64,000 nt of DNA. Origin: a virus. The translations under genes were made by a program, and so were the position numbers. This document shows, piece by piece, positions 12,251 to 60,290 of this stretch. How positions within the stretch are numbered: position 1 is the first letter of the stretch; each line of letters opens with the position of its first letter. The stretch spans positions 1 through 64,000 of IMG/VR virus record IMGVR_UViG_3300036886_000243; one strand, written 5' to 3'. A model generated the notes under the pieces. It was not told where the DNA came from and searched no databases. It saw only the letters and a list, made by a program, of their open reading frames with translations.

Positions 12251-15064
12251 ATGACAAACTTTACGCAACTTTTAAAAAAAGTAATGCTATTGAGTGATCT
12301 CAATCAAGCTCAAACTGCTATAAATAACGAGAGAGCTAGGCGTACCGCTATAAATGGCAGTACTATACCGGCATGGTCGTTTTTACCAGTTAGTCGATAT
12401 GATTACGCTTCTGGTAATTTAATTACCAACGGCAATGGCGAAACAGTTTCACCTGCTCCTGCTATTTTTGGGAAGACTGGTGCAGCAGTAAATTCAACTT
12501 TTACTCAAAGCTCAACACACGTTCACTTAGGCTCTAACGCCTTCAACTTAGCTTACACGTCTGGTCTTACTCAATTTTATTGGGACTTTGCATCGCCTGA
12601 AAGTTTCACCAACTTGGGAGGCTTAGTACCAAATACTACTTATACACTTACTGCTTGGGTTTATGTGCCTTCGTCAATAATTTCATTATCAAACGTTACG
12701 CTTGCCATTTATTATAGCACAGATGGTGTTAGTTGGACAAACTTTGCCCAATCTAATTCACCAACTGCTTACAATGATTATCAGCGCTTAACTTTAATTT
12801 TTACTTTGCCACCAAGCACTACTGGAACTATTTTAAAACTACTCGTTAATGAAGTCGGGGCCACTAAACAACTTTGGGTTGATGATATATATCTTCGATC
12901 TAATACTCCAGCTGTAGTAGCTGATTTAAGAAATTCTATAAACAACATGATAAACTATAGCTGGACACAATCGGCTGTTGAATATGGTTATGAAACAGCC
13001 CTAGGTCAAAGCGAAATACTTTGGAAAATTAACAGACTAGAAGAGAACGCTGAAACTTGTAATTCTTCTTGTATTGGATTCTGTCAAGGTTGTTCAACAC
13101 AATGTGGAACTGCATGTGCTACTGGTTGTGGTGCGGCTTGTGCTACTGGTTGCGGTGGTAGTTGTGCAATTGGCTGTGGAACTGCTTGTGCAAGCGGTTG
13201 CGGGGCAGCATGTCAAATTACTTGTGGTGGAACTTGTAATGAAAGCTGTAGCAGCTGTACTGGTAGTTGTGCTACTGGTTGTTCAGGTACTTGTTTCCAT
13301 GGCGCTACAGGTGCTGGTTTATATACTTCGTGTAATTGTGGTACTAGCTGTAGTAGTACTTGTGGCTCTTCCTGTTCTGGATGTTATACGACATGTACGT
13401 CGAGTTGCGGAAGTGCTTGCGTAGGTGGTTGTGGTACCTCTTGTCAAAGTGGTTGTGGTACTGGATGCGCTGGAGGTTGTGGAACTGCATGTACTAATGG
13501 TTGTGGAACTGCATGTCAGAGCGGCTGTGGAACTTCTTGTCAAGCTGGCTGCGGAACCTGCGCATTACAATGTTATAATGCATGTACAGGAACTTGTGGT
13601 GGATTATGCGTTGTTACTTGTGGATCTAACTGCACAGCTATCGCATCATATGCAACTAGTTTAAGCCGATTTATTACATCGCCTTATTATTCTATTCTTC
13701 CAGGTACTATAGTAGAATCACTCTATGATGATCAACAAGTTGTGGGAACTACCGATGTTACTGCTTCGGTAGTTTTTGGATCTTACGTTGTAGTGGGATC
13801 TTCTAGTGGACGTATTGCTTCGTTTGATACGGTCCATAATTATTGGAAGTGGTATACTGGTTATTCAAACGGAACTTCAAATGGGCCGTTTAATGTTGGA
13901 ACAGCTGTAAACAATCAAGCCGTAATAAAGTTACTAGTCTTAGGCACTAAACTTATAGTAGTAACACAGAATTATGTTGCTTCTTATGACGGCACTAATT
14001 GGAAAAATTATGACGGGACTGGCACCGGAACTGGACCATTCGATAATAACACAGCAACGGGCGGATATGGTAACTCAGATGCTGTCGTATGGACTACTAA
14101 ATTAATCATCATTGGACTTACTACAACATTTAATGGTACAAATTTCCTTGCACATAATAGATTATCTTCTTTTGACGGCACGAATTGGAAATATTATAAT
14201 GGAACTGGGACTGGAACTGGACCATTTGCAATAGATGTAAAATCAGATAACACAATTGGAAATCTTTGGGGAGTTTCAGGTTGGTCTTTTAGTTACAACG
14301 TCAAATTAACAACCTACAACACTTATCTTATTGTGTTTGGCGGATCGTTAATTACAGAAGGTCCAGGTACACCATTTACCCACTCTAACGCTGGCTGTGC
14401 TTCATATGATGGGAACTGGAAATATTTTGATGGAACTGGAACTGGAACTGGGCCATTCTTTAATAGCGCTCTAGCCAACGGCGGCCCATTGCCACACGTT
14501 AATGGCACGCTCACGACTATAGCCACAATTGGTGCTTGCGGAAGTTATAACGGGCAACTGATAGTGACTGATTTTGCTTATGGTAATACTAGAATAGCTT
14601 CCTGGGATGGTAGCCATTGGAAAAATGCTGATGGTACAGGGACAGGGACTGGTGTCTTCTATACTGGTACAGCTATTTTAGGAGCTAGCGCTCATATATT
14701 AAAATTATTAGATTACGCACCCGGCGCAACGCATTTCTTAGTAATAACCTCTGATATAGCTAGTGCTTTAGCTTCTTGGAATGGAGCTAGCTGGAGAAAC
14801 TCTGATGGTACAGGTACTGGCACAGGACCATCAAACTCTGGCACTGCAGTAAATTCTCAAATAATTCAAACACTATCTACACTAATATACAGTGGTAAAA
14901 ATTATTTGGTACTTGGAGCTAGTGGTGGAAATATTGCATCTTATGACGGGACTACATGGCTAAATTACAATACTGTGCCTACAATAATTACAACTGGAAC
15001 CTATTTTACAAATAATCCACCAGCTGAGTATTTTGGAGTGACTGGTTATTATACGTCAATTTAA
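12251..15064 (+). CDS. Fibre protein with CXXX-repeat cysteine domain and seven-motif beta-propeller
   Basis: This 937-residue protein has four parts. Residues 1-60 form a helical start. Residues about 55-225 form a CBM4/9-like jelly roll (NLITNGNGE start, LWVDDIYLRS end). Residues 270-461 hold 48 cysteines, almost all spaced CX3C with Gly, Thr, Ser and Ala between them. Residues about 515-915 carry seven copies of a motif like SYDGTNWKNYDGTGTGTGPF, the count expected for a seven-bladed propeller. A GGAAGC-type ribosome site precedes the ATG. It lies directly after the giant fibre and four positions upstream of a SPASM-only protein, with a radical SAM/SPASM enzyme between, so the cysteine ladder is the obvious candidate substrate for that enzyme. 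I infer an exported-with-the-virion receptor-binding or baseplate protein. The chemistry on the cysteines (disulfide, thioether or metal) is not visible from sequence. Confidence 0.85.
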   Translation: MTNFTQLLKKVMLLSDLNQAQTAINNERARRTAINGSTIPAWSFLPVSRYDYASGNLITNGNGETVSPAPAIFGKTGAAVNSTFTQSSTHVHLGSNAFNLAYTSGLTQFYWDFASPESFTNLGGLVPNTTYTLTAWVYVPSSIISLSNVTLAIYYSTDGVSWTNFAQSNSPTAYNDYQRLTLIFTLPPSTTGTILKLLVNEVGATKQLWVDDIYLRSNTPAVVADLRNSINNMINYSWTQSAVEYGYETALGQSEILWKINRLEENAETCNSSCIGFCQGCSTQCGTACATGCGAACATGCGGSCAIGCGTACASGCGAACQITCGGTCNESCSSCTGSCATGCSGTCFHGATGAGLYTSCNCGTSCSSTCGSSCSGCYTTCTSSCGSACVGGCGTSCQSGCGTGCAGGCGTACTNGCGTACQSGCGTSCQAGCGTCALQCYNACTGTCGGLCVVTCGSNCTAIASYATSLSRFITSPYYSILPGTIVESLYDDQQVVGTTDVTASVVFGSYVVVGSSSGRIASFDTVHNYWKWYTGYSNGTSNGPFNVGTAVNNQAVIKLLVLGTKLIVVTQNYVASYDGTNWKNYDGTGTGTGPFDNNTATGGYGNSDAVVWTTKLIIIGLTTTFNGTNFLAHNRLSSFDGTNWKYYNGTGTGTGPFAIDVKSDNTIGNLWGVSGWSFSYNVKLTTYNTYLIVFGGSLITEGPGTPFTHSNAGCASYDGNWKYFDGTGTGTGPFFNSALANGGPLPHVNGTLTTIATIGACGSYNGQLIVTDFAYGNTRIASWDGSHWKNADGTGTGTGVFYTGTAILGASAHILKLLDYAPGATHFLVITSDIASALASWNGASWRNSDGTGTGTGPSNSGTAVNSQIIQTLSTLIYSGKNYLVLGASGGNIASYDGTTWLNYNTVPTIITTGTYFTNNPPAEYFGVTGYYTSI
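13058..13633 (+). repeat. CXXX repeats: 48 cysteines at period four
   Basis: Cysteine codons recur almost every 12 nt from residue 270 to 461. The period slips to CX2C at about four places and to CXC once, and a single 12-residue spacer (residues about 355-366) splits the region into a block of 21 and a block of 27 cysteines. The intervening triplets are dominated by GTA, GTS, ATG, QSG and GAA. Confidence 0.95.
13812..14975 (+). repeat. Seven beta-propeller blade motifs
   Basis: Seven imperfect copies of [S][YFW]DG-x-x-W-K-x-x-DGTGTGTGPF recur about every 50-65 residues. The first is degenerate (FDTVHNYWKWYTG) and the last is truncated after W-L-N-Y. The regular spacing supports a closed seven-bladed propeller. 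Confidence 0.8.
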
Positions 15065-16182: not shown

Positions 16183-17409
16183 GTGATAAGTGAAAAGCTA
16201 GATTCTCAAATAGCCAAAGGCGCTCCGCAATACAAAGCGGGAGAAGCCAAAGATATAACTTTCTGTGTCACACAAGCTTGTAACTTAAGATGTCGCTACT
16301 GCTATATTGTAGGAGCTGATAATCATAAGAGTCTTACTAAAGATCAAGCCAAGAAAAACATAGATTTTATTTTTGATAATCCCGAACTCTTTTATGAGAA
16401 CTCTGTTATTTGGAATTTTATAGGCGGAGAGCCTCTCTTAGAAATTGAGCTGATTGACTACATGTGCGACTATTTAAAAATAAGAATGTATGAAAAACGA
16501 TCAGATGATTGGTTAAGCGATCACATGTTTTGTTTTTCAACTAATGGAACATTGTATCATAAGCCGGAAGTTCGAAAATTCATAAATAAGAACAAGGATC
16601 ATCTCTCAATTGGTTTTTCAATAGACGGCGTAAAAGAACTTCATGATAAATACAGAGTTTATCAAGATGGTAGAGGTAGCTTTGAAGATGTTTTAAAAAA
16701 TGTACCTTTATATGTAGCTGATTTTCAACATCACCCAACTACTAAAGCTACTTTATCACATGACTCTTTACCTTATATTTTTGAGTCAATCAAATTTCTT
16801 TCGACTTTAGGTTTAGACATTTACATGAATACCGTCTTTGAAGATATTTGGCAAGATGGTGATGATGATATATACTATGACCAGCTTTTACAAGCAGCTG
16901 ATTGGCTTATTGAAACAGGAAAGTGGCGTACACAGGTTGTGAGTTTGTTTGACTCAGCATTAATTGGACCACGCAATAATAATAACAAAAATTGGTGTGG
17001 TTCTGGTAAGATGTTGCACATAGACATAAACGGTAAACTTTTTCCATGTACTCGACTCGCTCCATATTCTATGACTTATAGAAAAGAAGGATTTTCTTTT
17101 GGAGATATAGAGCGGGGATATGACCAAAATAAACTAGATGCTTTTCTCAATTTGACTAAGCCTGATCAGAGCGATATGAGTTGTTTAAGTTGCGACATAG
17201 ATGATGGATGTGCTTGGTGTACAGGCTGGAACTATGATAGATACGGCTCAATATTCAAAAGAGCCACCTTCATATGTAAAATGCATAAGGCCAGAATGAA
17301 AGCCAATAGATACTACTTTAATAGACTAGAAAGCTTGATAAAAAGTGAAAGTTTTGAAAACAGTCTAAAAGAGAATGCTCCCATCTGGGAAGCCTTAGCA
17401 AAGGAATAA
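16183..17409 (+). CDS. Radical SAM/SPASM enzyme, likely CXXX-repeat maturase
   Basis: This 408-residue protein starts at a GTG preceded by AAAGAAAGG. The radical SAM cluster motif is C33-x3-C37-x2-C40 (ACNLRCRYCY), followed by GGEP at 81-84 and the SIDG strand at about 146-149. The C-terminal SPASM domain shows seven cysteines: C272, C289, C334, C337, C343, C346 and C365, with the CX2CX5CX2C core. Radical SAM/SPASM enzymes of this layout install thioether or C-C crosslinks in peptides. It sits 14 nt after a virion gene and two genes from a 48-cysteine CX3C protein, and it is followed by a SPASM-like partner and a W-rich small protein, matching the gene set I recall for CXXX-repeat target systems. 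No NrdG, QueE or MoaA-specific feature is present. Assignment to the superfamily is firm; the substrate is inferred. Confidence 0.9.
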   Translation: MISEKLDSQIAKGAPQYKAGEAKDITFCVTQACNLRCRYCYIVGADNHKSLTKDQAKKNIDFIFDNPELFYENSVIWNFIGGEPLLEIELIDYMCDYLKIRMYEKRSDDWLSDHMFCFSTNGTLYHKPEVRKFINKNKDHLSIGFSIDGVKELHDKYRVYQDGRGSFEDVLKNVPLYVADFQHHPTTKATLSHDSLPYIFESIKFLSTLGLDIYMNTVFEDIWQDGDDDIYYDQLLQAADWLIETGKWRTQVVSLFDSALIGPRNNNNKNWCGSGKMLHIDINGKLFPCTRLAPYSMTYRKEGFSFGDIERGYDQNKLDAFLNLTKPDQSDMSCLSCDIDDGCAWCTGWNYDRYGSIFKRATFICKMHKARMKANRYYFNRLESLIKSESFENSLKENAPIWEALAKE

Positions 17410-17410
17410 T

Positions 17411-18115
17411 ATGGTTCTTTATTATCTAAGTGGTAAAATTCATAGCGACTGTCATTATGAAGACTTAGAGCTTGATGATATTGACATAGCCTTAGCCACA
17501 AAATTAGCCGACGAGAAACAAATATATTTGCAAGAATTTAGTGCATCGGAGTTTTCAGAGGACGGTTTAGATTTTCCAATTAATGAAAGTACTTGCAATA
17601 AAAGAATTTTAGCACCTGACATGAACATCTATTATTGTCCTGGATTTGTAGAATTGAAAGAACCTATTTGCTCTCTGAGAGAGTTTAATGAAGAAGATTT
17701 CGATAAAAAGCTTGAGGACTTCTATTTCAAAAAACTTTATATGTGTACAAGTCCCAACGTAGAAGACGTGAGAAGATTTTGTCCGGTGAAAACTAAATGT
17801 GATAAAAAAATGTGCTATTATCTAAATCACAAACTGACTGGTGATAATAGATTTCCTTTTAGCGATTTCTGCATAGTTAAGGAAAACAGGTACACTAAAA
17901 AAATGGACACGAATAATATAGATATTTTACCAATACTCTTAAATTGTTTAATAAAACAAAATGAGGCTATTCACTCTTTGGGAACTGCTCATCCAAATCC
18001 AGTAGTCAAAAATAGACTGCTCAATTTAGTTGAAGAAGTCAATGAAAATATCTCGACTGTTATTGACAGAATGGAACAAGCTGTAAAGCAAGATGGAGAA
18101 GAGGATGTCCCTTGA
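17411..18115 (+). CDS. SPASM-only partner of the radical SAM enzyme (candidate CXXX-repeat maturase component)
   Basis: This 234-residue protein begins 1 nt after the radical SAM stop. It lacks the CX3CX2C cluster motif but its cysteines (C62, C76, C124, C130, C135, C154) line up with the SPASM half of the neighbour: NIYYCPG matches KLFPCTR, and RFCPVKTKCDKKMC-(18)-C matches the CX2CX5CX2C-(18)-C core. It would therefore bind auxiliary Fe-S clusters and perhaps guide the substrate, without generating a radical itself. The last ~70 residues are helical (LNCLIKQNEAIHSLG). NCBI-type names such as CXXX repeat peptide maturase exist for a companion protein in such systems, but I cannot verify that this one belongs there. 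The alignment was made by eye. Confidence 0.7.
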   Translation: MVLYYLSGKIHSDCHYEDLELDDIDIALATKLADEKQIYLQEFSASEFSEDGLDFPINESTCNKRILAPDMNIYYCPGFVELKEPICSLREFNEEDFDKKLEDFYFKKLYMCTSPNVEDVRRFCPVKTKCDKKMCYYLNHKLTGDNRFPFSDFCIVKENRYTKKMDTNNIDILPILLNCLIKQNEAIHSLGTAHPNPVVKNRLLNLVEEVNENISTVIDRMEQAVKQDGEEDVP

Positions 18116-23190: not shown

Positions 23191-23246
23191 TTTGTAAGAT
23201 GCCTCCTTATGTTGATATCGCATATATTATTCATAAGAGGAAAGTT

Positions 23247-24154
23247 ATGGATTTTGATTATAGTAAAATAGTAGGATGGACTGAAGAGCAAATAAGGTCA
23301 GGCGTCTATCATGATTATTCTAACACTAAAATTGTTAAAGACACAAGAAAACAAGATCGGAGATATAAAATATTTCCCGGTGGTAAAATTAAATACACTT
23401 ACTGGGTTTGGGAAAAATGTTACGGAACTCAAGCCCCATTTAATTTGATAATTCATCACAAAGACGAAAATCCTTTAAACGACAACATTGAAAACCTCAC
23501 CCTTATGACTAGAGGCGAACATTCTAAGTGGCACAGCCAAAGATTAGTTGGCAAAACTTACGACGAAATACATGGAGCTGAGAAAGCTGAAGTTATAAGA
23601 CAAAGAATAATTGACAATACAAAAGAAGCATTAGCATCTCCCGAAATGCGACAAAAAATTTCTGAGACTACTAAAGAAGGAATGATAGGTGTCAAGATCT
23701 GGTGTGAAGGTGGTCATCTTCCTGAAGAAGTAAAAGCTAAGATTAGTGAGAGTCGCTCTGGTAAATGTATGGGAGCGGACAATCCTAGTTTCGGTAAACC
23801 TTGTCCTGAGAAAACTAAAGAAGCAGTCAGTAAAGCTAATACTGGTAGAGCGCCATGGAATAAGGGCAAGAAGATTTCTCTAGAGCGCCCAGATATAATT
23901 GAAAATCAGAAAAAAAGTCATGCTGATATGAAAGGCGAAAATAATCCGTTCTATGGTCAAAAGCAAAGCAAAGCGAAGAATTGAAAAAGCATCTAGCTGC
24001 AATTAATACTAAACATCAAATTGGCGACGTCTGGAGAGACGAAAAAGGAATTCTCAAGTATAAAAATGAAGCCGGTAGGAATCGCCGAGTTCCTGACATA
24101 TTTAATCGTATACCAGAGTTCATAAAAGACAAAGTAAAAGAAGCAAGACAATGA
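23247..24154 (+). pseudogene. HNH/NUMOD3 homing endonuclease interrupted by a 5-bp tandem duplication
   Basis: From the ATG at 23247 (GAGG upstream) the frame encodes an HNH-type nuclease core (IIHHKDENPLNDNIENLTL, TRGEHSKWH) followed by NUMOD3 DNA-binding motifs (NPSFGKPC, NTGRAPWNKGK, NNPFYGQK). It stops at 23984. The region to 24154 continues the protein in another frame as KQSEELKKHLAAINTKH and so on. The junction contains AAGCA twice in tandem, and removing one copy restores a single ~300-codon ORF. Homing endonucleases spread within phage genomes and often decay. An alternative start at 23199 lacks a ribosome site. Either the insertion is genuine or it is a consensus error. Confidence 0.8.
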
Positions 24155-24439: not shown

Positions 24440-24619
24440 ATGGTCCCAGGCGATTGGATTGTTAATAAAGAAGTCATCAATTTATTGAAAGGTCATTCAT
24501 GTGAAGATTGTTGTATGGGTTGCGGTGGAATGGATTGGGCAATGATTTGTCAGATGTGGGAGTCTAGTGAGTCTTATAAAAAGAGAATGGAAGTTCTAAT
24601 GAAGGGTAGTCGTGCTTAA
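24440..24619 (+). CDS. LLK-TCDxC family protein, copy 1 (divergent)
   Basis: This 59-residue ORF starts 1 nt after the previous stop. It reads EVINLLKGHSCEDCCMGCGG, then CQMWESSESYKK, the pattern shared by eight small proteins here: a short amphipathic helix ending in LLK, then C-x2-C, a third Cys, a fourth Cys and W. This copy is the most divergent, with GHSCEDC in place of DRTCDNC. The four cysteines could hold one zinc ion. Confidence 0.65.
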   Translation: MVPGDWIVNKEVINLLKGHSCEDCCMGCGGMDWAMICQMWESSESYKKRMEVLMKGSRA

Positions 24620-24633
24620 GCATATATCTCTTT

Positions 24634-24825
24634 ATGATTGACTTTCTACTAACGGCTTTAGGAATACTTGGATGTATATTTGCTGCAGCTATTCTTATAG
24701 CTACAGGCATGGTGACCCTTTATTTTCTTCACATTGGATTGTGGGGCTTAGCGCTTGTAATTATTCTAATAGGCTGGCCTCTTGAGATTGCTGCAATAAT
24801 AAAAATTGGAACAGATTTCTTTTAG
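24634..24825 (+). CDS. Small two-helix membrane protein
   Basis: Nearly all of the 63 residues are hydrophobic: two transmembrane segments (residues about 3-33 and 37-58) with a short linker. It could be a holin-like or superinfection-related protein, but these sizes are not diagnostic. The ATG lies within the promoter-like sequence AAGCATAT-N5-TTTATG, and no Shine-Dalgarno precedes it. Confidence 0.65.
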   Translation: MIDFLLTALGILGCIFAAAILIATGMVTLYFLHIGLWGLALVIILIGWPLEIAAIIKIGTDFF

Positions 24826-24833
24826 GAGGAAAT

Positions 24834-25040
24834 ATGGGGTGGGCGAGTGGTAGCAGTCTTTTTTCAGAAATAATTCACGCCTCCAAAAAAGCGATTCCGA
24901 ATTCAATTCATAGAAAGAATTTTTATATAGAAATCATTCAAGCTTTTGAAGGTGAAGATTGGGACACTCAGGATGAATGCAGAGGCTTAGATATAGCCTA
25001 CGACGAAGCATTAGCGGAGCTTCATCAAGTGAGAAAGTAG
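24834..25040 (+). CDS. Conserved small phage protein (GWASGSxLFSEII)
   Basis: The 68 residues match a pattern I know from small phage hypothetical proteins: MGWASGSSLFSEIIHASK near the start, FYIEIIQAFEGEDWDTQDEC in the middle and a DEAL helix at the end. A perfect AGGAGG lies 6 nt upstream. The function of the family is unknown to me. Confidence 0.75.
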   Translation: MGWASGSSLFSEIIHASKKAIPNSIHRKNFYIEIIQAFEGEDWDTQDECRGLDIAYDEALAELHQVRK

Positions 25041-25049
25041 AGGACACCT

Positions 25050-25307
25050 ATGGGTATTGATAGAGGTGGGATGTGCGACACTGGTGAAAGTTATGATTCT
25101 TTTATCGCTAGGGTAAACGCAAAGCGAAGAGAAGAAAAATTAAGTCGGGTTTTAAGTTTAACCGAAAAAGAAGTGGCTAATCTTAAAAGATCTGTAGCCG
25201 CTTATCGCAAGAAACCCTTCGGAGCGCCTGACTTAGTTCTTAACGAAGGCTGGTTAAAAAGCATAGAGAAGCTTATTCACGATTGGGAATTTTTGAGAGG
25301 ATCATGA
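25050..25307 (+). CDS. Small helical protein of unknown function
   Basis: The 85 residues include a basic coiled-coil-like helix (FIARVNAKRREEKLSRVLSL TEKEV) and a second helix (WLKSIEKLIHDWEFL). It overlaps the following ATG by 4 nt. Nothing identifies a function. Confidence 0.65.
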   Translation: MGIDRGGMCDTGESYDSFIARVNAKRREEKLSRVLSLTEKEVANLKRSVAAYRKKPFGAPDLVLNEGWLKSIEKLIHDWEFLRGS

Positions 25308-25477
25308 ACGTCTCTACACACAACAACATTTGCTATATTGACTCTTCTGATTTAGATTGGTTTATGAAGATGCTAGAATTGTTTTGGTCAGAGCAACTTT
25401 TTGATATAAAAACTGGCGAGGTAGTTAAACACTTTGTTGAGTGGAAAACAAATAACACTGAATCTTCTGAAAGATAA
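25304..25477 (+). CDS. Small acidic protein of unknown function
   Basis: The ATG at 25304, with GAGAGG upstream, gives 57 residues (SSDLDWFMKMLELFWSEQLF core). A longer frame from 25283 would start inside the previous gene. Its end, coding ESSER, overlaps the beginning of the next LLK-TCDxC copy by 44 nt. Confidence 0.6.
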   Translation: MNVSTHNNICYIDSSDLDWFMKMLELFWSEQLFDIKTGEVVKHFVEWKTNNTESSER

Positions 25478-25640
25478 AACTTGTCAGTGGTGCATAAACA
25501 AAATAACACTTCATTGTTTCTATAAACCTGGCCAACCTTTACCGGTAAATTGTACATGCCCTAAATGGAAATTTACTTTTTCATTTCTATCAAATTGGGA
25601 AGCTGTTTTTAATTGTGTCAAAAAAGAAACCTATTTATAG
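25434..25640 (+). CDS. LLK-TCDxC family protein, copy 2
   Basis: The 68 residues start at a TTG and read TLNLLKDKTCQWCINK, then HCF, NCTCPKW. The family helix and CX2C are intact. No ATG is available upstream of the motif, so initiation at TTG, or coupled re-initiation from the overlapping gene, is likely. It overlaps the next gene (25615) by 26 nt. Confidence 0.6.
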   Translation: MLSGKQITLNLLKDKTCQWCINKITLHCFYKPGQPLPVNCTCPKWKFTFSFLSNWEAVFNCVKKETYL

Positions 25641-25785
25641 ACCGCCTCTTCCGACGGCTTGTAATACAAAACAAAAATACGAAAGAAAAGAAATTGCTGA
25701 TTGGTTTTTAAGAGAAGGCATGTCCTCCTATGAATGCCCTGTTTGTGGATATTGGCATATAGGTCACAAGAGAGAAGAAAAATGA
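25615..25785 (+). CDS. Small zinc-binding protein (CPVCGYWHIGHK type)
   Basis: A GTG start gives 56 residues with a C-terminal SYECPVCGYWHIGHK knuckle preceded by an ACNTKQKYERKEIADWFLR helix. This layout, one Cys before a helix and then CX2C-x4-H-x2-H, recurs in small phage zinc proteins. ATGA overlap with the following gene supports coupled translation. Confidence 0.65.
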   Translation: MSKKKPIYRPPLPTACNTKQKYERKEIADWFLREGMSSYECPVCGYWHIGHKREEK

Positions 25786-25937
25786 CTGATAAACTATTAC
25801 ATGAAATTCGTGTTTTCTTAAATGAAGTTGCTCAGCGTGATATGTATGGATCTTATCGTTTAATAGCTTATAGTTTACTTGACGATATATTTGAAGAGCT
25901 AGAAGCAGAAGTAGAAAAAAATTCACATACTTCTTAA
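25782..25937 (+). CDS. Small helical protein of unknown function
   Basis: The 51 residues from the ATG overlapping the previous stop form two helices (LLHEIRVFLNEVAQRD, LIAYSLLDDIFEELEAEVEK). A longer frame from 25734 would run antiparallel to the zinc protein's coding content and has no start signal. Confidence 0.6.
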   Translation: MTDKLLHEIRVFLNEVAQRDMYGSYRLIAYSLLDDIFEELEAEVEKNSHTS

Positions 25938-25939
25938 AT

Positions 25940-26116
25940 ATGATTCAACGTGGCGATATTAACACTATAAACCGTGAGATAACCAAAAATCTCCTGAGGG
26001 ATAGAACTTGTAACAATTGTCGTCGAACAATAAATGCTGCGTGTGTAGTTAATCTTGGAACTTGTTTGTTTTGGAAAGAAAAGATAAAGCCATTCCGATT
26101 ACCTTACGAAGAATAA
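25940..26116 (+). CDS. LLK-TCDxC family protein, copy 3
   Basis: This 58-residue ORF reads REITKNLLRDRTCNNCRR, then AAC and GTCLFWKEK, with all four cysteines and the W. It starts 2 nt after the previous stop and ends ahead of a small membrane protein. Confidence 0.7.
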   Translation: MIQRGDINTINREITKNLLRDRTCNNCRRTINAACVVNLGTCLFWKEKIKPFRLPYEE

Positions 26117-26126
26117 AGGGGAGAAT

Positions 26127-26303
26127 ATGAAACTTTGGAAACGCATTCTTATTACAATAGGAGTTTTTGCTTTCTTTGTTGTGCTAGGGACACTTCTTTC
26201 GTTAGGCTTTAGTGCCCTAAGTCCAGTAGGCATAATAATTGTATGCGGCATAATAATTGTAGGTTTTATTATTTTTGTGTTTCATCAAACTGGGAAGATG
26301 TGA
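26127..26303 (+). CDS. Small two-helix membrane protein
   Basis: The 58 residues begin MKLWKRILITIGVFAFFVVL and continue with a second hydrophobic helix containing a direct GIIIVCGIIIVGF repeat. GGGGAG precedes the ATG. It is hydrophobic from end to end, so probably embedded in the inner membrane. Its stop overlaps the next GTG start. Confidence 0.65.
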   Translation: MKLWKRILITIGVFAFFVVLGTLLSLGFSALSPVGIIIVCGIIIVGFIIFVFHQTGKM

Positions 26304-26500
26304 TACCAAAACAAGAAGTCCTAATGCTCTTAAGATACTCTCCTTTGCATGTGGCAATATGGAAAGACCATATTCATAAATGTAGAAATGCGCCTGAGTA
26401 TCACAATGGTCATAAATACGATTGTACTACTTGTGAAAAAACAGACCCAGATTATTTCAGTTATTGTAAAGACTTTTATGGACACCAAACAGCAAACTAA
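26300..26500 (+). CDS. Small Cys/His-rich protein
   Basis: A GTG overlapping the upstream TGA gives 66 residues with HKCRNAPEYHNGHKYDCTTC and YCKDFYG. Four cysteines and several histidines suggest a zinc site. It could be a highly divergent relative of the LLK-TCDxC family because it ends in C-x2-F, but it lacks the LLK helix. The start choice is uncertain; an ATG lies at 26324. Confidence 0.5.
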   Translation: MIPKQEVLMLLRYSPLHVAIWKDHIHKCRNAPEYHNGHKYDCTTCEKTDPDYFSYCKDFYGHQTAN

Positions 26501-26669
26501 GAATTTACTCAAGAATAAAACGTGTGATACTTGTATACGAAAAGATCCCTTCTATAGTTGGCGTTGTGGCGAGGAATATGAAGACCGTCTTACCTGCGAA
26601 AACTGGTTAAGAGATATGAGATTCAAGTTTGTAGACGGTCAAGTGATTAAAAAGAGAAGGGGCGACTAA
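26478..26669 (+). CDS. LLK-TCDxC family protein, copy 4
   Basis: Starting at the ATG at 26478 gives 63 residues: MDTKQQTKNLLKNKTCDTCIRK, then WRCGEE, LTCENWLRD. It overlaps the end of the previous gene by 23 nt. The C-terminal tail is basic (VIKKRRGD). Confidence 0.7.
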   Translation: MDTKQQTKNLLKNKTCDTCIRKDPFYSWRCGEEYEDRLTCENWLRDMRFKFVDGQVIKKRRGD

Positions 26670-26872
26670 TGTTTTGTTTTCATAAATACGGCAAAAGACA
26701 AAAAGACGGTTATCAATATTGTAGCAAGTGTGGCAAGGCTCACAGAGTACCTTGTAATCATAAATGGAATTTAACAGAACAAATTTCATGTTATTTCTTT
26801 AACGATCTAGACCATTATGTAAATGTCTATGAGTGTGAAAATTGTGGAAAGATGAAAAAGAAGAGGATATGA
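26669..26872 (+). CDS. Small double zinc-knuckle protein
   Basis: The 67 residues contain CFHKYGKRQKDGYQYCSKCG and VYECENCGKMKKKR, two CX2C knuckles framing CNHKW. The start DGYQYCSKCGKA is typical of small phage zinc proteins. TAATG-type contact with the upstream gene and an ATGA overlap downstream. Confidence 0.7.
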   Translation: MFCFHKYGKRQKDGYQYCSKCGKAHRVPCNHKWNLTEQISCYFFNDLDHYVNVYECENCGKMKKKRI

Positions 26873-27396
26873 AAATGAGTAACATGTATTGCCTTGATTG
26901 GATAGCACCACAAGATATTGACTTAGAATGTAAAAATCTGTGCATTGCTCTTAATGCTTTGCCTGGAATAGAAACTGATGAAAGTTGTTGTGGTCATGGC
27001 AAAGAGTCGTATCGTATTTGGTTTCGTGTAACAGATTATACCAGAAGAGGCTTTTTGTTTCTTTCGAGATTAATGTGTACCAGATACTACAATTTCCTTG
27101 AGTGGCAAGTTACATTACAACACAGTGATTCTACTGGCTTCACTCGCAAAAGTGGTTGGAGACAAATTGGATATCTCTTAGAGGGGCCACCAGGTAGTTA
27201 TACCTTTGATGGTAAGTCTGAGGGAGGTTTTGCTGAAGCTGAAAGCATAGCTGAAATAATCAGACGGCATATTTCTAAGAAGGAGCTAGGATATAACCTT
27301 CTTTATCATTCAGTCAACGACAAAACATATGATGAGTATTGGGAGAACGGTAAAAAGGCTCACGATACTGAGGAGTTAAAGAAAGATGCCGACTAG
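26869..27396 (+). CDS. Conserved phage protein with ESCCGHG motif
   Basis: From the overlapping ATG at 26869 (AAGAAGAGG upstream) the protein has 175 residues. The motif ETDESCCGHGKESYRIWFRV, in which a Cys-Cys-Gly-His-Gly turn leads into a strand, recurs in unannotated phage proteins. Downstream lie W- and Y-rich strands (YYNFLEWQVTLQHSD) and an acidic helix. The biochemical role is unknown to me. Its last 11 nt overlap the zinc-ribbon gene at 27386. Confidence 0.7.
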   Translation: MKMSNMYCLDWIAPQDIDLECKNLCIALNALPGIETDESCCGHGKESYRIWFRVTDYTRRGFLFLSRLMCTRYYNFLEWQVTLQHSDSTGFTRKSGWRQIGYLLEGPPGSYTFDGKSEGGFAEAESIAEIIRRHISKKELGYNLLYHSVNDKTYDEYWENGKKAHDTEELKKDAD

Positions 27397-27541
27397 AAGG
27401 ATTCGCGACATAAAGCCGCCGTGCAATCATCCAGATCATAGACCTCCAATGCATATGGTTTTTAAGCCTGGAGTATATGAACACACTTGCCCAGCTTGCG
27501 GCGAAGTAATTACTTTTACAGTACCACTTATAACGTGCTAA
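27386..27541 (+). CDS. Small zinc-ribbon protein (CNHPDHRPP type)
   Basis: The 51 residues read PPCNHPDHRPPMHMVFKPG then EHTCPACGEVITFTVP, a well-known small phage zinc-ribbon layout (C-x-H-P-x-H-x-P-P ... CPxCG). No ribosome site is obvious; translation is probably coupled to the overlapping upstream gene. Confidence 0.75.
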   Translation: MPTRRIRDIKPPCNHPDHRPPMHMVFKPGVYEHTCPACGEVITFTVPLITC

Positions 27542-27545
27542 CCGA

Positions 27546-27555
27546 CAAAGATAAT
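27546..27555 (+). promoter_or_regulatory. CAAAGATAAT promoter-like site
   Basis: GATAAT ends 18 nt before the ATG at 27574, and a GGGGGA ribosome site lies between. The preceding gene stops at 27541, so the site is intergenic. Confidence 0.45.
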
Positions 27556-27573
27556 TCCAAGTCGGGGGATTAT

Positions 27574-27885
27574 ATGAATCAAAATGACGTAGCCACGTTT
27601 ACAAATGCCATTACTCAAAAACTATATCAGATCTTAGTTGATCAAGCCAAGCAAATGAGTTTCGACGAAGTGCAGTCCAATATACTTGCCAATCAAATTG
27701 TTCCGCCTTGGAAAGAGCGTATTCAAGCCAAGTTGGCCTCATCTACCGTAGCAAAGGCAACAATTGCCATGATTGAAATTAAACCCAGATCTGTGTACTA
27801 TAAAGTACCACCTCAGACTCAAAAATTCAACAAACTTAGTGAACTGGCAAAGCTTTGTCTTGAGGCATGTTTTGCTAAATTATGA
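27574..27885 (+). CDS. Helical protein of unknown function
   Basis: The ATG at 27574, after GGGGGA, gives 103 residues. A frame open from 27487 would run through the zinc-ribbon gene and the promoter-like site. The protein is helical (FTNAITQKLYQILVDQAKQM, LSELAKLCLEACFAKL) with one strand (TIAMIEIKPRSVYYKV). No family is recognised. It ends in an ATGA overlap. Confidence 0.7.
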   Translation: MNQNDVATFTNAITQKLYQILVDQAKQMSFDEVQSNILANQIVPPWKERIQAKLASSTVAKATIAMIEIKPRSVYYKVPPQTQKFNKLSELAKLCLEACFAKL

Positions 27886-28052
27886 AAACCCCAATTGATG
27901 TGAAATGTCTTTGCGGACGCACAGTTAAAACAATGCAAGAAACTTTACCTATGTTAGTTGAGGTTGATGAAGATAAAGATTTGATCTTTATGATTTGTGG
28001 TCATGGCGTCGTCCTTTTTGATAAGAAGTCTTTAGAGAAAAGACGTAATTAA
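27882..28052 (+). CDS. Small cysteine-containing protein
   Basis: The 56 residues include KCLCGRTVKTMQETLPM and LIFMICGHGVVLFDKKS. The Cys-x-Cys-Gly and Cys-Gly-His pairs suggest a compact zinc-binding fold. It overlaps neighbours at both ends by 4 nt and 1 nt. Confidence 0.65.
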   Translation: MKTPIDVKCLCGRTVKTMQETLPMLVEVDEDKDLIFMICGHGVVLFDKKSLEKRRN

Positions 28053-28312
28053 TGACTTACCCGACAATGAATGAATTGCATTCAGTTGTAAAAAAGCAAA
28101 TAACTAAGAATTTACTTAAAGACAGAATTTGTGATAATTGCAGACATCGTGGGAAAGGCGCAGACAGACCATGTCCGCATAATGAAACAATCACTTGCTG
28201 TCAATGGGAAAAAGATGAACGCGTTTTATTCCAAGGTGGCGAAAGTGATTGGACGTGGGCTGACGGCACAGAATCGAGATGGAAGTGGTATACTGTTGAC
28301 TCCGAAAGATAA
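28052..28312 (+). CDS. LLK-TCDxC family protein, copy 5
   Basis: The 86 residues carry the family core KKQITKNLLKDRICDNCRHRG, then RPCPHNETITCCQWEKDE, followed by a W-rich extension (DWTWADGTESRWKWY). Its end, coding DSER, overlaps the next copy, the same arrangement as at 25477. Confidence 0.75.
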   Translation: MTYPTMNELHSVVKKQITKNLLKDRICDNCRHRGKGADRPCPHNETITCCQWEKDERVLFQGGESDWTWADGTESRWKWYTVDSER

Positions 28313-28550
28313 AACAAAAAATCTTCTCAAAGACAGGACTTGTGATAATTGTGGCGCTGCATATCGTCCTTGTCATTCGATTGACAGAACCTGTAAAGAT
28401 TGGGTGGAATCGAGTGCAGCTTGGACAGTAGAGTTTAAAGAAGCTATTGACCAAGAGGTCATAAAAAATCTTCAGCAGTGGATGAAATTAGCAACACCAG
28501 AACAAGAGCTATGGATACCCTCCGATATAATTGAAATCACACATGACTAA
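28296..28550 (+). CDS. LLK-TCDxC family protein, copy 6
   Basis: From the TTG at 28296 this gives 84 residues: LTPKDKTKNLLKDRTCDNCG, RPCHSIDRTCKDWVE, then an acidic helical tail (EVIKNLQQWMKLATPEQELW). An upstream ATG at 28215 would make a longer product overlapping copy 5 by nearly 100 nt; the GGAAGTGG before the TTG favours the short form. Confidence 0.65.
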   Translation: MTPKDKTKNLLKDRTCDNCGAAYRPCHSIDRTCKDWVESSAAWTVEFKEAIDQEVIKNLQQWMKLATPEQELWIPSDIIEITHD

Positions 28551-28782
28551 AGAGATCACGAAAAGCCTTCTTAAAAATGAGACATGCGACACTTGCATAT
28601 TTAAATTTAAAAAGAATTGTTCGTGTCCCGAGCTAACTTGTAGTGGGTATTTCAAGGCAATTGAGATGAGCTGGGAACAACTAAATGGGACTAAGCATCA
28701 TGGTATTATTGTAGACATTGAGGATGATGCATTCTACATTTATTGCGACATCCACAATAAGGAGTGTTGTTGCTCATTATGA
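28543..28782 (+). CDS. LLK-TCDxC family protein, copy 7
   Basis: The ATG at 28543 overlaps the stop of copy 6. The 79 residues read KEITKSLLKNETCDTCIFKF, NCSCPELTCSGYF, then a strand-rich extension ending in CDIHNKECCCSL, which adds four more cysteines. Copies 5-7 are contiguous and probably arose by tandem duplication. Confidence 0.7.
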   Translation: MTKEITKSLLKNETCDTCIFKFKKNCSCPELTCSGYFKAIEMSWEQLNGTKHHGIIVDIEDDAFYIYCDIHNKECCCSL

Positions 28783-29399
28783 AAGTTAAAGATCTAATAA
28801 AAGAACTACAAGAAGCTGATCCCACTGGCGAATGTTATGTTCGCTGTGATGCTGGGGCTCCTTTCTTTGTCGAACGTAAAGAGGGATATTGGGATGGACC
28901 ATACCACTATATAGAAGATGGCAAATATCACATCTCTTCTACTCATGACAAAGTTGACATCCAATCTATGGACTATGAATCTTGGATATGGGATCACGAC
29001 GGTGATTACTCTAGCATTGAAGTAGATACTTCAGTCTATTGCGCATCGGCCGAACGAAAGAAAGAGTGGCTAGAAAAGTTTGAGAAGATTTCTAAAGAGT
29101 GCAAGAAGTTCAAAGAACAATGTCTCAAGGAAATGACTTTTGATGTTCTTAAGCGACTCAACGATGATTGGCACATTTATCAAGATACCGATAAACCAGT
29201 CGGTCACTATAATGCAATGTATTATGAAAAGTATACTCCACTGCCAGGAAATCAAACAGAATTTGCGAGGGATAGACTTTGTCAAGGTGAAACTGAAGTT
29301 CTCTTAGAATCTGGTCTATTTTGTATTAATCCAGCAAATATTCATGAGTGGGTTTTAGCGTCTCCAAATCATCAGAAGGGATACAAGAAAAATGGCTAA
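28779..29399 (+). CDS. Conserved phage protein (KDLIKELQEADPTG type)
   Basis: The ATG at 28779 overlaps the previous stop and gives 206 residues. The start MKVKDLIKELQEADPTGECY matches a motif seen in many phage hypothetical proteins. An acidic, Tyr/Trp-rich middle and a Lys/Glu-rich coiled-coil (EKFEKISKECKKFKEQCLKE) follow. No enzymatic motif is seen. Confidence 0.7.
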   Translation: MKVKDLIKELQEADPTGECYVRCDAGAPFFVERKEGYWDGPYHYIEDGKYHISSTHDKVDIQSMDYESWIWDHDGDYSSIEVDTSVYCASAERKKEWLEKFEKISKECKKFKEQCLKEMTFDVLKRLNDDWHIYQDTDKPVGHYNAMYYEKYTPLPGNQTEFARDRLCQGETEVLLESGLFCINPANIHEWVLASPNHQKGYKKNG

Positions 29400-29598
29400 G
29401 CCACGTTTCGATAAAGACAAAGATCCTGCCCGCGCTCAGCAACGTTGGCATGAGCTGTGGAAAGAATGGTCGCCATATATGAATAGAGAAAGTTTTAATC
29501 TCGAAGAAAAAGAGGCCTTTATAGTTCAAAAATATTTCGAACGTAAATGGGCTGAAAAACATGTTCACCAAGAAACAACTGACAATTCTACTACTTAA
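29392..29598 (+). CDS. Small charged helical protein
   Basis: The 68 residues begin MAKPRFDKDKDPARAQQRWH, and the remainder is a W-rich amphipathic helix (ELWKEWSPYMNRESFNLEEK). It overlaps both neighbours (8 nt and 38 nt). The function is unknown. Confidence 0.65.
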   Translation: MAKPRFDKDKDPARAQQRWHELWKEWSPYMNRESFNLEEKEAFIVQKYFERKWAEKHVHQETTDNSTT

Positions 29599-29842
29599 AG
29601 GTGCAATTTGTAGTGATTGTATAAAATCGATGAATAGTGAATACTTGATTGATAATTCCTTTTGTATTCATAAACATCCAATGACGGTAGACAGCTTTGG
29701 ATTAATTCGATTTGCGTTTGCTGATGGCAATTATTGTATAGACGAATTGGTAAGAGATAAAAAATTAGATTATAGACATACTGACCACTCAGAGATTAAT
29801 AGAATATTTGAAAAATATTTTCCTGAATTGAAACACTTATAG
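29561..29842 (+). CDS. LLK-TCDxC family protein, copy 8 (divergent)
   Basis: The 93 residues read KKQLTILLLKGAICSDCIKS, then NSFCIHKH, and continue with an unrelated C-terminal domain (FGLIRFAFADGNYCIDELVR). The LLK helix, CX2C and third Cys are kept, but the terminal C-x2-W is missing. This copy may have been recruited to another role. Confidence 0.6.
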   Translation: MFTKKQLTILLLKGAICSDCIKSMNSEYLIDNSFCIHKHPMTVDSFGLIRFAFADGNYCIDELVRDKKLDYRHTDHSEINRIFEKYFPELKHL

Positions 29843-41625: not shown

Positions 41626-41644
41626 TCGCGTGTAAAGGGAAATA

Positions 41645-41824
41645 ATGGCTACCAAGGAAGAAGTCTTGGCAATGCTCAAGTGGAAACCAAATCCTGAGTA
41701 CGTTTGCTTAGACTGTGGTAATACTTCTGATTTTCAAGCAATTCAGGCTGACTACGATCTTCAGCTAGAATGTCTAACTTGTGGGAGTAAGAGAGTAACG
41801 GAAAAACAACAGCTTCGACAGTGA
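41645..41824 (+). CDS. Small zinc-ribbon protein
   Basis: The 59 residues have knuckles YVCLDCGNTSDF and LECLTCGSKRV with ~18 residues between, plus an N-terminal helix (TKEEVLAMLKWKP). Its last ten bases are also the start of the next TCGACAG promoter-like site. Confidence 0.7.
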   Translation: MATKEEVLAMLKWKPNPEYVCLDCGNTSDFQAIQADYDLQLECLTCGSKRVTEKQQLRQ

Positions 41825-44476: not shown

Positions 44477-44844
44477 GTAAAAAAGAACCAAAAGACCCAG
44501 TGAAATGGAATGGCTTCAATTACATGGAGCTGAAAGATTATGTGGGGCCGGAAGTCCGGCTCCATCCTTTTCTTTACGGAGATAAAATAGATCTTGACAA
44601 AGTAGTCATTGAAGGTTTCATCGTCGAGCTTCACAACATAATTACAAAGACTGTTACACAGGATAATGGAGAGGCTATCTCTCCACCAACTGAATTGGAA
44701 CTTAAAAAAGTCACAGTCTCGAAAAAGAAGGGTGTGAACCGAAGAGTAGAAATTGAATTTGCTCTTCCCGTTCAATCATACAAGCAGCATACGGTAGAAG
44801 AAGAGGCTTTAGATGACGACGACGGCGACCCATGCTCGATATAA
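44473..44844 (+). CDS. Small protein with acidic tail
   Basis: The 123 residues comprise a strand-rich core (VVIEGFIVELHNIITKTVTQ, RRVEIEFALPVQSY) and a C-terminal acidic run (EEEALDDDDGDP). It overlaps the preceding gene by 4 nt and the following PARG gene by 32 nt, where the acidic run is read in a second frame. The function is unknown. Confidence 0.65.
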   Translation: MSKKEPKDPVKWNGFNYMELKDYVGPEVRLHPFLYGDKIDLDKVVIEGFIVELHNIITKTVTQDNGEAISPPTELELKKVTVSKKKGVNRRVEIEFALPVQSYKQHTVEEEALDDDDGDPCSI

Positions 44845-45670
44845 TCTTTACAGGCAATTGCACATCTCAAGAAAGAAGGGTGTTCGTCTAGGTCAAGAAG
44901 CACTAGACATTTGTACCAATGGGTACTACATGGCACCTTCTGGCAACGAAGTTGATTTCACTTCCTTGCTTCTTCACGCTATGGAAGCGACATTATCCTA
45001 TCCGGAAGACCTAGAACTCTTACCGCCAAAGAATAACGGATTCACTACTACCTATGAAGTCCGCAACGAAACTACTCTCGCTGCAACCCGTAGATTAAAC
45101 ACTAAAGGCTTTCATCCAGTCGCTTTGAATATGGCATCAGCACACCGACCAGGAGGCGGCTTCCTTTCTGGAGCCGCCGCCCAAGAAGAATACTTGTGTC
45201 GGTCTTCCGCTCTTTATCCATGTCTTCTGGATAACCCAATGTATTCTTTGCCACGCGATCCATTCGCTACTGATTATACAATTTATTCTCCCGACGTTCC
45301 TATATTTAGGAACGATGAGGGAAGGCTGTTGGAAGCAGTAGAGCTTTATTCTGTCCTCACATGTGCTGCGGTCCACGCAAGAGTCATTGGCAGAGACATG
45401 CCAGAAAGAGTTTCTGAAATCAAGCCCGTTATGGAAAAGCGTATCAAAAGACTTCTCAACATCGCAGCTATCCAAAACCATAACTCTCTAGTTCTCGGAG
45501 CTTGGGGATGTGGCGTTTTTGAAAATAGCGGAGAGCTGATTGCTTCTCTTTTCAAGAAAGCTCTCAGGCACGAATTTAAGGGCGTCTTCAGTAAGGTAGT
45601 CTTTGCTATTGCTGATTGGTCTATAGAACAGAAATTCATCGAGCCATTTATCAAAGCTTTTGCAAAATGA
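44813..45670 (+). CDS. Bacterial-type poly(ADP-ribose) glycohydrolase (PARG-like macrodomain)
   Basis: The 285 residues contain the bacterial PARG signature: NMASAHRPGGGFLSGAAAQE with GGG at 114-116 and QEE at 124-126, seven residues apart. It continues with LGAWGCGVFENSG, the second macrodomain loop. Enzymes of this type remove ADP-ribose from macromolecules. The length is normal for the TIGR02452 type. It is translationally coupled to the upstream gene by a 32-nt overlap and to the downstream secreted protein by ATGA. In a phage it could undo ADP-ribosylation-based defences or regulate phage-made modification. The role is inferred. Confidence 0.9.
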   Translation: MTTTATHARYNLYRQLHISRKKGVRLGQEALDICTNGYYMAPSGNEVDFTSLLLHAMEATLSYPEDLELLPPKNNGFTTTYEVRNETTLAATRRLNTKGFHPVALNMASAHRPGGGFLSGAAAQEEYLCRSSALYPCLLDNPMYSLPRDPFATDYTIYSPDVPIFRNDEGRLLEAVELYSVLTCAAVHARVIGRDMPERVSEIKPVMEKRIKRLLNIAAIQNHNSLVLGAWGCGVFENSGELIASLFKKALRHEFKGVFSKVVFAIADWSIEQKFIEPFIKAFAK

Positions 45671-54929: not shown

Positions 54930-56734
54930 ATGGCACGAGTAATTGGAATTGATCTTGGAACCTCAAACTCAGCAGCAGCTGTTATGGAGGGTGATCGCCC
55001 GGTAATAATCCCCTCAGCCGAAGGAGCCGGAGTTTCTTCAGGTAAGGCATTTCCATCATTTGTGGCCTTCACCAAAGAAGGAGATCGTTTAGTTGGTGAG
55101 CCCGCTAAAAGGCAGGCCGCCATTAACCCAGATGGTACTATTTACGCTGCAAAGCGAAAGATGGGAAGTGATCATAAGTTTAAAGTTTTTGGTAAAGATT
55201 ATAGCCCTCAGCAAATCTCGGCGAAAGTGTTGAGGAAGTAGTCATTACATGCCCAGCTTACTTTGACGACAATCAACGTACAGCTACTAAAGACGCAGGC
55301 GAAATAGCCGGCCTGAAAGTTCTCCGTATTATTAATGAGCCCACTGCAGCGTGCCTTGCTTACGGTCTAGAAAAAGCAGGCAAAGAGCTTAAGATCCTCG
55401 TCTTTGATTTTGGTGGTGGAACTCTTGACGTCACCATTATGGAGATGTGGAAAGAAGGCGGCTTCAAGGTCATTTCCACTAGCGGCGACACCCAACTAGG
55501 TGGTACCGATATGGACAACGTTTTTGTAGATTACGTTGAAAAAGAATTCATGCGACAGACTGGTATCGATCTCAAAAAAGATACCATGGCTACACAACGA
55601 GTAAGAGAAGCAGTAGAGAAAGCCAAGGTAGAACTTTCTAGTACTCTCACTACCGACATTAGTCTACCTTTCATTACAGCCGACAATACTGGCCCTAAGC
55701 ACCTTACAATGAACATAAACAGAGCAAAGCTTGATGAACTCATTGAGCCCATTGTGCAACGCTGTAGGGCACCGCTAATGACTGCTTTACGTGATGCAAG
55801 GGCCGCCTTCCAAAAAGATGGTGCTCAATTCAGCGAAAATGGTGCCGAGATTGACAAAATTATCATGGTAGGTGGTCCCACTCGTATGCCAATCGTTCAG
55901 AAGTTTGTCGAGGACTTCTTCGGCAAGAAAATTGAACGCGGCGTAGACCCAATGGAATGTGTAGCACTAGGCGCAGCTGTTCAGGCTGCCATTATCAAAG
56001 GCGACGTCAAGGATATTCTACTTCTCGATGTTACCCCACTTTCACTTGGTATTGAAACACTGGGCGCCGTAAACACTAAGCTCATTGATCGCAATACTAC
56101 AATTCCCACACGAAAGAGCCAGATATTTTCTACTGCAGCTGAAAATCAAACAGAAGTTACTGTTCGAGTGCTTCAAGGCGAGCGTCAAATGGCTAACGAC
56201 AACGTAGAGCTTGGTCGATTCAATCTGGTAGGTATCCCAGCAGCTCCGCGAGGCGTCCCTCAAATTGAAGTAGCCTTTGACATAGATGCTAACGGTATTG
56301 TAAGCGTTACAGCTAAAGATCTTGGTACCAACAAGCAACAGTCTATCAAGATCACTGCACCAAAAAAGCTCTCCAAGGAAGAAATTGAGAAGATGGTTCG
56401 GCAAGCTGAACAATTTGCCTCAGATGATGCTAAGCGCAAAGAAGAAGTAGAGTCTACTAATCAAGCTGATGCCCTTGCCTACTCAGTAGAAAAATCACTT
56501 AAAGATTTCGGCGACAAAATAAGTCAGACTGAACGAGCCGACATTGAATCTAAGCTTAATGACTTAAAGACGGCTATCAAAGACAAGAATCTTGATAGGA
56601 TCAAAAAGGCCTCAGAAGATTTGACTACAGCAGCGCATAAATTAGCTGAAGTAGTTTATCAGCAAAAACCTGGACAGCAACCAAAAAATAAGAAAGAGGG
56701 TGACGACGTTATAGACGCCGAGTTCCATGAATGA
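54930..56734 (+). pseudogene. dnaK: Hsp70 chaperone DnaK, broken by a short deletion
   Basis: The N-terminal part ([34 protein letters not shown]) runs in one frame to a TAG at 55239-55241. The rest runs in another frame from 55220: [49 protein letters not shown], the substrate domain ([13 protein letters not shown]) and the acidic end [10 protein letters not shown]. At the junction GCGAAAGTG reads as AKV in the first frame and as (G)ESV in the second. About 12-14 residues that normally separate ISAKV from GESVEEVV are missing. This fits a deletion between two copies of a 9-nt direct repeat. If real, the product lacks a complete ATPase domain; a start at 55439 would give only its C-terminal half. 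No grpE or dnaJ is in the window. Confidence 0.85.
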
Positions 56735-59418: not shown

Positions 59419-60290
59419 ATAAACATGTTGTTTCTACAAATGAAAATATAAATTGGCCCAGAGGGTTTACAATTTTAGATAATCGGATCCATGATGAGCT
59501 TCAAAGATATCTTAGGCCGTCTTCGTTTTGTATCTGGTGCCAATATCTTAGGTTTTGGGGTAGTGATAAAAAGAAAGCTTATCCAAGTTTATCCTATTTA
59601 AGTAATGTGACTGGTCTCGCTGAAAGAACAATCCGTAGTTGTAATACGGAACTTGTCGATAAGAAATTCCTAAAAAAGAAATCGGGTAGTTCTAACTCTT
59701 CAAATATTTACTACTATGTTCCTATTGATAAGATTCTTAAATACTACAAAGATGGGACTGAACCAGAAGCTGATAAAGAGAGCGTAAGTGAAACACAAGA
59801 TATCAATGACCTCTTGAAAGATGTAGCCAAAGGTAATCAAATATCAGCAGCATTATTCATAAAAGATTTTGAAGATGGTCATGGTGGACAATACAACCTT
59901 AACGACAAGGATATAGAGGCTCTTAACCAAAATTCAACTCAGCTAAGTCCTAAGCTTATAGACATTTTCTTCAAGACTAAGAACCCTTATATCGCAAACT
60001 CCGATCACACCATGTATTTCTTTTTCCGTCCGAAGACACAACAAGTATTAAAAGCTGAGTTTTTTAAGAGCGACATAGGACGCTGGACTAATCAAGCTGA
60101 AAGAGCATGGGCTGGTATAATGCCAGTCCTAAGTAATCCACAGACACCTGAGCTCAAGACTACAATTCTCAATGATCTAAATACTTTCATTAAAACTTAC
60201 GTAAAATTCAATCGCGGCAATTCAAGTAGAGATGCCTTTGTTTACAAATACTTAGAGCAAAAGATTGAGGCCTTCTTGAAAGATAAATAG
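59415..60290 (+). CDS. Winged-helix replication-initiator-like protein
   Basis: The ATG overlapping the previous stop gives 291 residues. Residues ~15-105 form a winged helix of the HTH_36 kind: FTILDNRIHDELQRYLRPSS, then AYPSLSYLSNVTGLAERTIR and LVDKKFLKKKSGSSNSSNIY. A charged linker and a C-terminal helical domain (RWTNQAERAWAGIMPVL, FIKTYVKFNRG) follow. The layout resembles plasmid and phage replication proteins and DnaD-like loaders. No origin repeats are seen within the gene. Confidence 0.65.
   Translation: MNKHVVSTNENINWPRGFTILDNRIHDELQRYLRPSSFCIWCQYLRFWGSDKKKAYPSLSYLSNVTGLAERTIRSCNTELVDKKFLKKKSGSSNSSNIYYYVPIDKILKYYKDGTEPEADKESVSETQDINDLLKDVAKGNQISAALFIKDFEDGHGGQYNLNDKDIEALNQNSTQLSPKLIDIFFKTKNPYIANSDHTMYFFFRPKTQQVLKAEFFKSDIGRWTNQAERAWAGIMPVLSNPQTPELKTTILNDLNTFIKTYVKFNRGNSSRDAFVYKYLEQKIEAFLKDK

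Follow-up and report, generated by a model that had tools for sequence, protein, structure and literature searches.

A small four-cysteine protein family, apparently undescribed, is strikingly amplified in large uncultivated phages

The first 64 kb (positions 1–64,000, hereafter the window) of the 91,508-bp IMG/VR record IMGVR_UViG_3300036886_000243, which derives from an uncultivated phage, contain eight copies of a gene for a small protein with four cysteines. The family to which they belong is apparently undescribed, and its observed amplification is strikingly high. The copies, referred to here by their first nucleotide, begin at positions 24440, 25434, 25940, 26478, 28052, 28296, 28543 and 29561. 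They had been proposed as an expanded and diversified family in the original prediction; this observation is confirmed and the expansion exceeds the earlier view, as an iterated profile search of eight contigs from uncultivated phages identified 113 copies. Judging from its sequence, the repeated module is probably metal-binding. The explanation that we tentatively favour is that it constitutes a metal-stapled scaffold, which may have been amplified and diversified, in an arms race between host and phage, into adaptors or inhibitors directed at host factors that change.

The evidence that the eight copies form one family comes from pattern, profile and codon analyses. All eight are real open reading frames (ORFs), and when the pattern LL[KR][DNG]xxCxxC was searched in the six frames of the whole record, exactly eight matches were found, all on the + strand and all corresponding to these copies (the chance expectation in residue-shuffled frames is 0.005 on average). 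A core profile of the eight copies found exactly the same eight in the six frames; this profile includes its own targets, and a leave-one-out test was therefore run, in which the profile of the other seven recovered six copies with expectation values (E) of 2e-6 to 6e-11 (25434, 2.3e-6; 25940, 2.2e-7; 26478, 1.8e-10; 28052, 6e-11; 28296, 1.1e-6; 28543, 7e-9) and the 29561 copy with an E of 1.4e-4. The 24440 copy, which is the most diverged of the eight, failed this test, with an E of 0.5 and a score under that of the best non-member. A hidden Markov model (HMM) of 104 sequences from other phages, with zero window copies, ranked the eight copies first, with E between 6e-13 and 2e-6 (24440, 1.8e-6; 25434, 6e-10; 25940, 5e-11; 26478, 6e-13; 28052, 2e-12; 28296, 8e-11; 28543, 1e-6; 29561, 9e-9), in a test that is not fully independent, since the 104 sequences were found via window-seeded profiles. 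The next ORF had an E of 0.02, and no ninth clear copy was found in the record with this HMM. The similarity also extends beyond the cysteines. In pairwise comparisons of the window copies over 15 codons around LLK and CxxC, the mean proportion of synonymous differences (pS) is 0.81 and that of nonsynonymous differences (pN) is 0.31, with pN lower than pS in 28 of 28 pairs. Because of this difference, the motif is judged to be kept by purifying selection, as protein. A DNA-level repeat or RNA element was ruled out, as the synonymous positions are saturated and the amino acids are kept. Separately, an ORF at 41636–41821 encodes a family-like N-terminal helix (KEEVLAMLK) followed by CxxC...CxxC, and is otherwise a zinc ribbon (family E 0.02); from this ORF, the helix of the family may be used with other cysteine modules too.

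In the family as a whole, the copies are distributed over the eight contigs as 25, 20, 17, 14, 12, 10, 8 and 7. The true number exceeds 113: in contig G004, to give one example, the profile search did not flag an ORF of the same architecture (59272–59736). The ends of contigs G002 and G004 have 11,155 bp in common at 100% identity, so one phage lineage carries about 38 copies. A neighbouring copy lies within 300 bp for 82 of the 113, nearly all copies of a given contig are on a single strand, and tandem arrays in overlapping frames occur alongside dispersed copies. Highly diverged copies are found in corresponding slots, flanked by conserved genes, in several phages, for example between a dUTPase-like gene (dut) and a polymerase-like gene and between a PHP-domain gene and a Nudix-like gene (gene identities were read by eye). 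A tree built from the cores leaves most forks unresolved; the paralogues of different phages are intermixed in it, with some clustering by phage. Pattern scans of viral contigs located relatives in only a handful of uncultivated phages, and the carriers form a group of large uncultivated phages with a gp23-type capsid protein, where that gene was found. The source record itself ends within a gp23-type major capsid gene (89,990–91,507), whose product is 71% identical to the capsid protein of another family-carrying phage. No convincing homologue was detected in the cultured phages searched, and no good family match in the huge phages that are nearest by capsid protein. A match in Pseudomonas phage Littlefix lies inside the portal protein and was attributed to chance. 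Of 13 pattern matches in bacterial genomes, only one exceeded the working profile threshold, and it was likewise judged to be a chance match.

Arrays of this type could also result from a largely neutral or selfish amplification, in which a mobile or tandem-duplicating small ORF would spread through intergenic slots beside homing endonucleases and capture tails by chance. The tandem arrays in overlapping frames, the occupied slots, the bits of unrelated proteins in the tails (see below) and the presence of a gene for an HNH-type endonuclease just upstream of the window array (23199..23984, + strand, not a family member; matched by several HNH families in PHROGs, at best with an E of 3.8e-8) are in line with this explanation. 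However, the module is under strong purifying selection and is without nuclease or recombinase features, and the gp23-like segments in the tails are in frame at ∼50% amino-acid identity. We consider a neutral or selfish origin unlikely.

The module consists of an N-terminal helix with the consensus K-x-I-T-K-N-L-L-K, followed by C-x2-C...C...C-x2-[WFY], and all four cysteines together with the aromatic residue are kept in 96 of the 113 copies. The gap between the second and third cysteines ranges from 2 to 47 residues and that between the third and fourth from 3 to 27, and the latter loop contains a proline in 68 of the 96 complete copies. Since 54 of the 113 copies have no more than 12 residues after the module, the module is taken to be the minimal unit; tails longer than 12 residues are present in about half of the copies. 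Across the copies, the loops vary in length and the tails are unrelated or absent.

Within the window, where every copy is on the + strand, the first copy (24440..24619, 59 residues, ATG start) reads KEVINLLKGHSCEDC...C...CQMW. The second (25434..25640, 68 residues) requires a TTG start and reads KQITLNLLKDKTCQWC...C...TCPKW, the third (25940..26116, 58 residues) REITKNLLRDRTCNNC...C...TCLFW, and the fourth (26478..26669, 63 residues, ATG at 26478) KQQTKNLLKNKTCDTC...C...TCENW. As predicted, the next three copies are contiguous, and their frames also overlap: the fifth (28052..28312, 86 residues, with an alternative ATG at 28067) reads KQITKNLLKDRICDNC...C...TCCQW, the sixth (28296..28550), which overlaps the fifth and also requires a TTG start, KDKTKNLLKDRTCDNC...C...TCKDW with a longer tail, and the seventh (28543..28782, 79 residues), which overlaps the sixth, KEITKSLLKNETCDTC...C...TCSGY with a 40-residue tail. 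The eighth (29561..29842, 93 residues) reads KQLTILLLKGAICSDC...C, has valine in place of the fourth cysteine and ends in a 52-residue tail; it is the exception to the final C-x2-[WFY] that had been described as usual. A third cysteine had been placed 5–19 residues on; the residue is present, and the measured spacing from the second cysteine is 3–14.

No model in Pfam, PHROGs or NCBIfam describes the module, and nothing was obtained when the window copies were compared one by one with PHROGs and Pfam. No known zinc-finger family in Pfam or NCBIfam was matched above its curated cut-off (the best was zf-FCS, with an E of 0.0024 for one member, under the cut-off), so that no well-known zinc family accounts for the copies, and no NCBIfam family was matched by more than one member. 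In PHROGs v4, the repeated significant matches were to the major head protein and lay within the tails, not the module, and one member matched an uncharacterised PHROG at 6e-5. When the core profile was compared with all PDB sequences, six matches had an E of 10 or lower, and each was to a high-potential iron–sulfur protein (HiPIP; best E 0.01). The sole Pfam family matched by at least two members was likewise HIPIP (2 of 58; E 0.032 or worse, not reaching the PF01355 cut-off). Alignment of the core with three HiPIP cores in hhalign gave a probability of 86.5%, compared with a maximum of 27% and a median of 0.6% for 60 HiPIP shuffles that kept the four cysteines and the aromatic residue, and with 2.5% or less for the window's own zinc ribbons. 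Because the shuffles and the zinc ribbons score far lower, the resemblance to HiPIPs exceeds the cysteine pattern alone; it is a lead, with marginal E-values and with HiPIP as the best pick of a whole database. The family had been suggested to comprise diversifying host-interaction or zinc-adaptor factors. Its diversification was borne out and a host-interaction role is plausible; zinc is one candidate metal beside [4Fe-4S], and the proteins of solved structure that come closest in profile comparison are these iron–sulfur proteins. The same matches would be expected if the copies were HiPIP-like [4Fe-4S] proteins for electron transfer or redox sensing. This is, in our estimate, rather unlikely: the family is without the GWC motif, its loops vary in length much more than those of the aligned HiPIPs, and many paralogues per phage fit electron carriers poorly.

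Fragments resembling the gp23 capsid protein were found in three tails from two other phages (G003 and G004), and Pfam Gp23 was matched by three family members (best E 1.1e-9). G003 is a 14.6-kb contig, and its family cluster follows the capsid gene, downstream, at a distance of ∼1.6 kb. Over 34 residues, one tail from this contig (copy in frame 1108–1488) shows 53% identity to the capsid protein of its own phage (BLAST, E 5e-9), and a neighbouring paralogue has a diverged version of this tail, recognised via the former (tail-to-tail E 1e-6). The tail of a G004 copy contains 46 residues of a different part of gp23 (BLAST, E 2e-11). On T4 gp23, these segments correspond to about residues 95–129 (two tails) and 263–308; the Gol region of gp23 presumably spans about residues 93–122. 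Another tail aligns over 17 residues with a conserved motif of ribonucleotide reductase (E 4e-4). Because 60 tails were tested, this match is only suggestive; in a control with 300 shuffled tails, the lowest E was 0.003, from one match. The window's eight tails have no detectable source sequence, and a search for a capsid-like tail in the 28296 and 28543 copies gave no significant result. According to a T4 review, no part of gp23 is more conserved than the 29-residue Gol region, to which the review attributes EF-Tu binding and activation of the Lit protease (PMC3014915). Defence systems are known to be triggered by capsid proteins (PMC9712102). These tails could thus act as capsid mimics or decoys, with the module showing peptides copied from the phage's own core proteins (for example, Gol-like and long helical gp23 segments) so as to keep host sensors or EF-Tu-like partners engaged, or to adjust how the capsid folds. 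We regard this as improbable, as such tails are seen in just 3–4 of the 113 copies and in none of the eight window copies, a trigger-bearing tail could activate a sensor instead of blocking it, and local recombination beside the capsid gene, as near the G003 cluster, could be an alternative source. In a broader version, which seems quite improbable, the constant, metal-stapled module would display exchangeable peptides copied from proteins that the phage itself cannot do without (capsid protein and ribonucleotide reductase) and form a decoy or retargeting-adaptor repertoire against capsid-sensing or EF-Tu-linked host defences. A second multicopy family of small proteins was observed in these phages (G004:82023–82253 and small ORFs in G002 and G008). 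One of its members matches part of the gp23 capsid protein (capsid profile, E 2.7e-6), and therefore capsid-like segments recur in small ORFs of these phages.

A gene for a radical S-adenosylmethionine (SAM) protein is also located in the window (16183–17409). It belongs to TIGR04115, 'radical SAM peptide maturase, CXXX-repeat target family' (430 bits, against an NCBIfam cut-off of 350), and is preceded by a gene for a 937-residue protein with long Gly/Cys CXXX repeats (12251–15064) and followed by a cysteine-rich ORF (17411–18115); the phage may cross-link its own CXXX-repeat protein. The four-cysteine copies could in principle be precursors of ribosomally synthesized and post-translationally modified peptides (RiPPs), with a conserved leader and a variable cysteine core modified by this maturase, and one member has a weak SCIFF match (E 0.017). 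Nevertheless, the maturase is 7 kb away, beside the CXXX-repeat protein that is its expected substrate, and G004 and G005 have many copies and no radical SAM match (none was found in G003 either, which is only 14.6 kb). The radical SAM proteins found elsewhere belong to different types, among them the lysine 2,3-aminomutase-like proteins encoded in two family-carrying phages (G002:35668–36786 and G006:37819–38910). The RiPP reading, which was not supported by the radical SAM genes across nine records, is very improbable. Three other features were observed. A DnaK-like protein is encoded in two separate window ORFs (54930–55241 and 55439–56734), either because the gene is split or as the result of a frameshift or of an error in sequencing. 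The window ORF at 44813–45670 encodes a TIGR02452 family protein (E 1e-68), which we take to be macrodomain/PARG-like. Tandem small genes in L030 (5190–7222) all have the ending K-L-x-L-[KR]-G-L-[IV]. This ending is probably not a protein motif and would instead reflect the Shine-Dalgarno sequence of the gene that follows with an ATGA overlap.

Under the favoured explanation of a diversified metal-stapled scaffold, the four cysteines would hold one metal centre, either zinc or [4Fe-4S] as in HiPIP, and thereby staple a very small scaffold. The constant helix would dock on one common partner and the loops and tail would supply a copy-specific target. In this way the phage would maintain a collection of small proteins, either adaptors or inhibitors, to counter host factors that change, which is what gene amplification in an arms race would be expected to yield. 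The amplification, the purifying selection on the module, the variation of loops and tails and the conserved slots are all observed and support this explanation. The resemblance to HiPIPs and the N-terminal helix, which AlphaFold2 predicts with confidence, also speak for it. Several results weigh against it. No defence gene or consistent neighbour naming a target was found, and the full four-cysteine pattern is absent from 17 of the 113 copies, including the 29561 copy. The first AlphaFold2 model was poor and the second moderate, with a loosely folded cysteine region and a predicted local distance difference test score of 71.6, which is a modest confidence, and Foldseek searches with the model against PDB and viral models gave no match. 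Dozens of diverged copies of one tiny protein in one phage look unusual, and the amplified family offers genetic access to what is at stake between large uncultivated phages and the bacteria that they infect. Testable predictions on partners and on capsid-sensing defence follow from the variability of the loops and tails around a single core, predicted to be held by a metal, and from the capsid fragments in some tails. Pfam, PHROGs and NCBIfam contain no entry for the family, so its profile would annotate many dark small genes.

When the family is compared with known systems, it shares with HiPIPs (PF01355) the C-x2-C...C...C-x2-W order (the four-cysteine part of which is present in 96 of the 113 copies) and a profile-level resemblance beyond the cysteines. 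It differs from them in that GW precedes the last cysteine in the three aligned HiPIPs, while T, I or S is found there in 71 of the 96, in its far more variable loops and in being phage-borne and multicopy. Small phage zinc-ribbon and zinc-finger proteins are likewise small, contain four cysteines and are encoded in dense arrays of short genes, and several unrelated ones lie within the window array (e.g. 26669–26872), but they have no profile similarity to the family. The likeness to gp23 of T4-like phages (PF07068) is confined to short segments behind the four-cysteine module in the tails of three relatives, with none in the window copies. Finally, anti-defence loci of T6 are reported to be amplified near homing endonucleases (PMC13096335); this provides a precedent for the amplification, and the window array has an HNH endonuclease gene just upstream.

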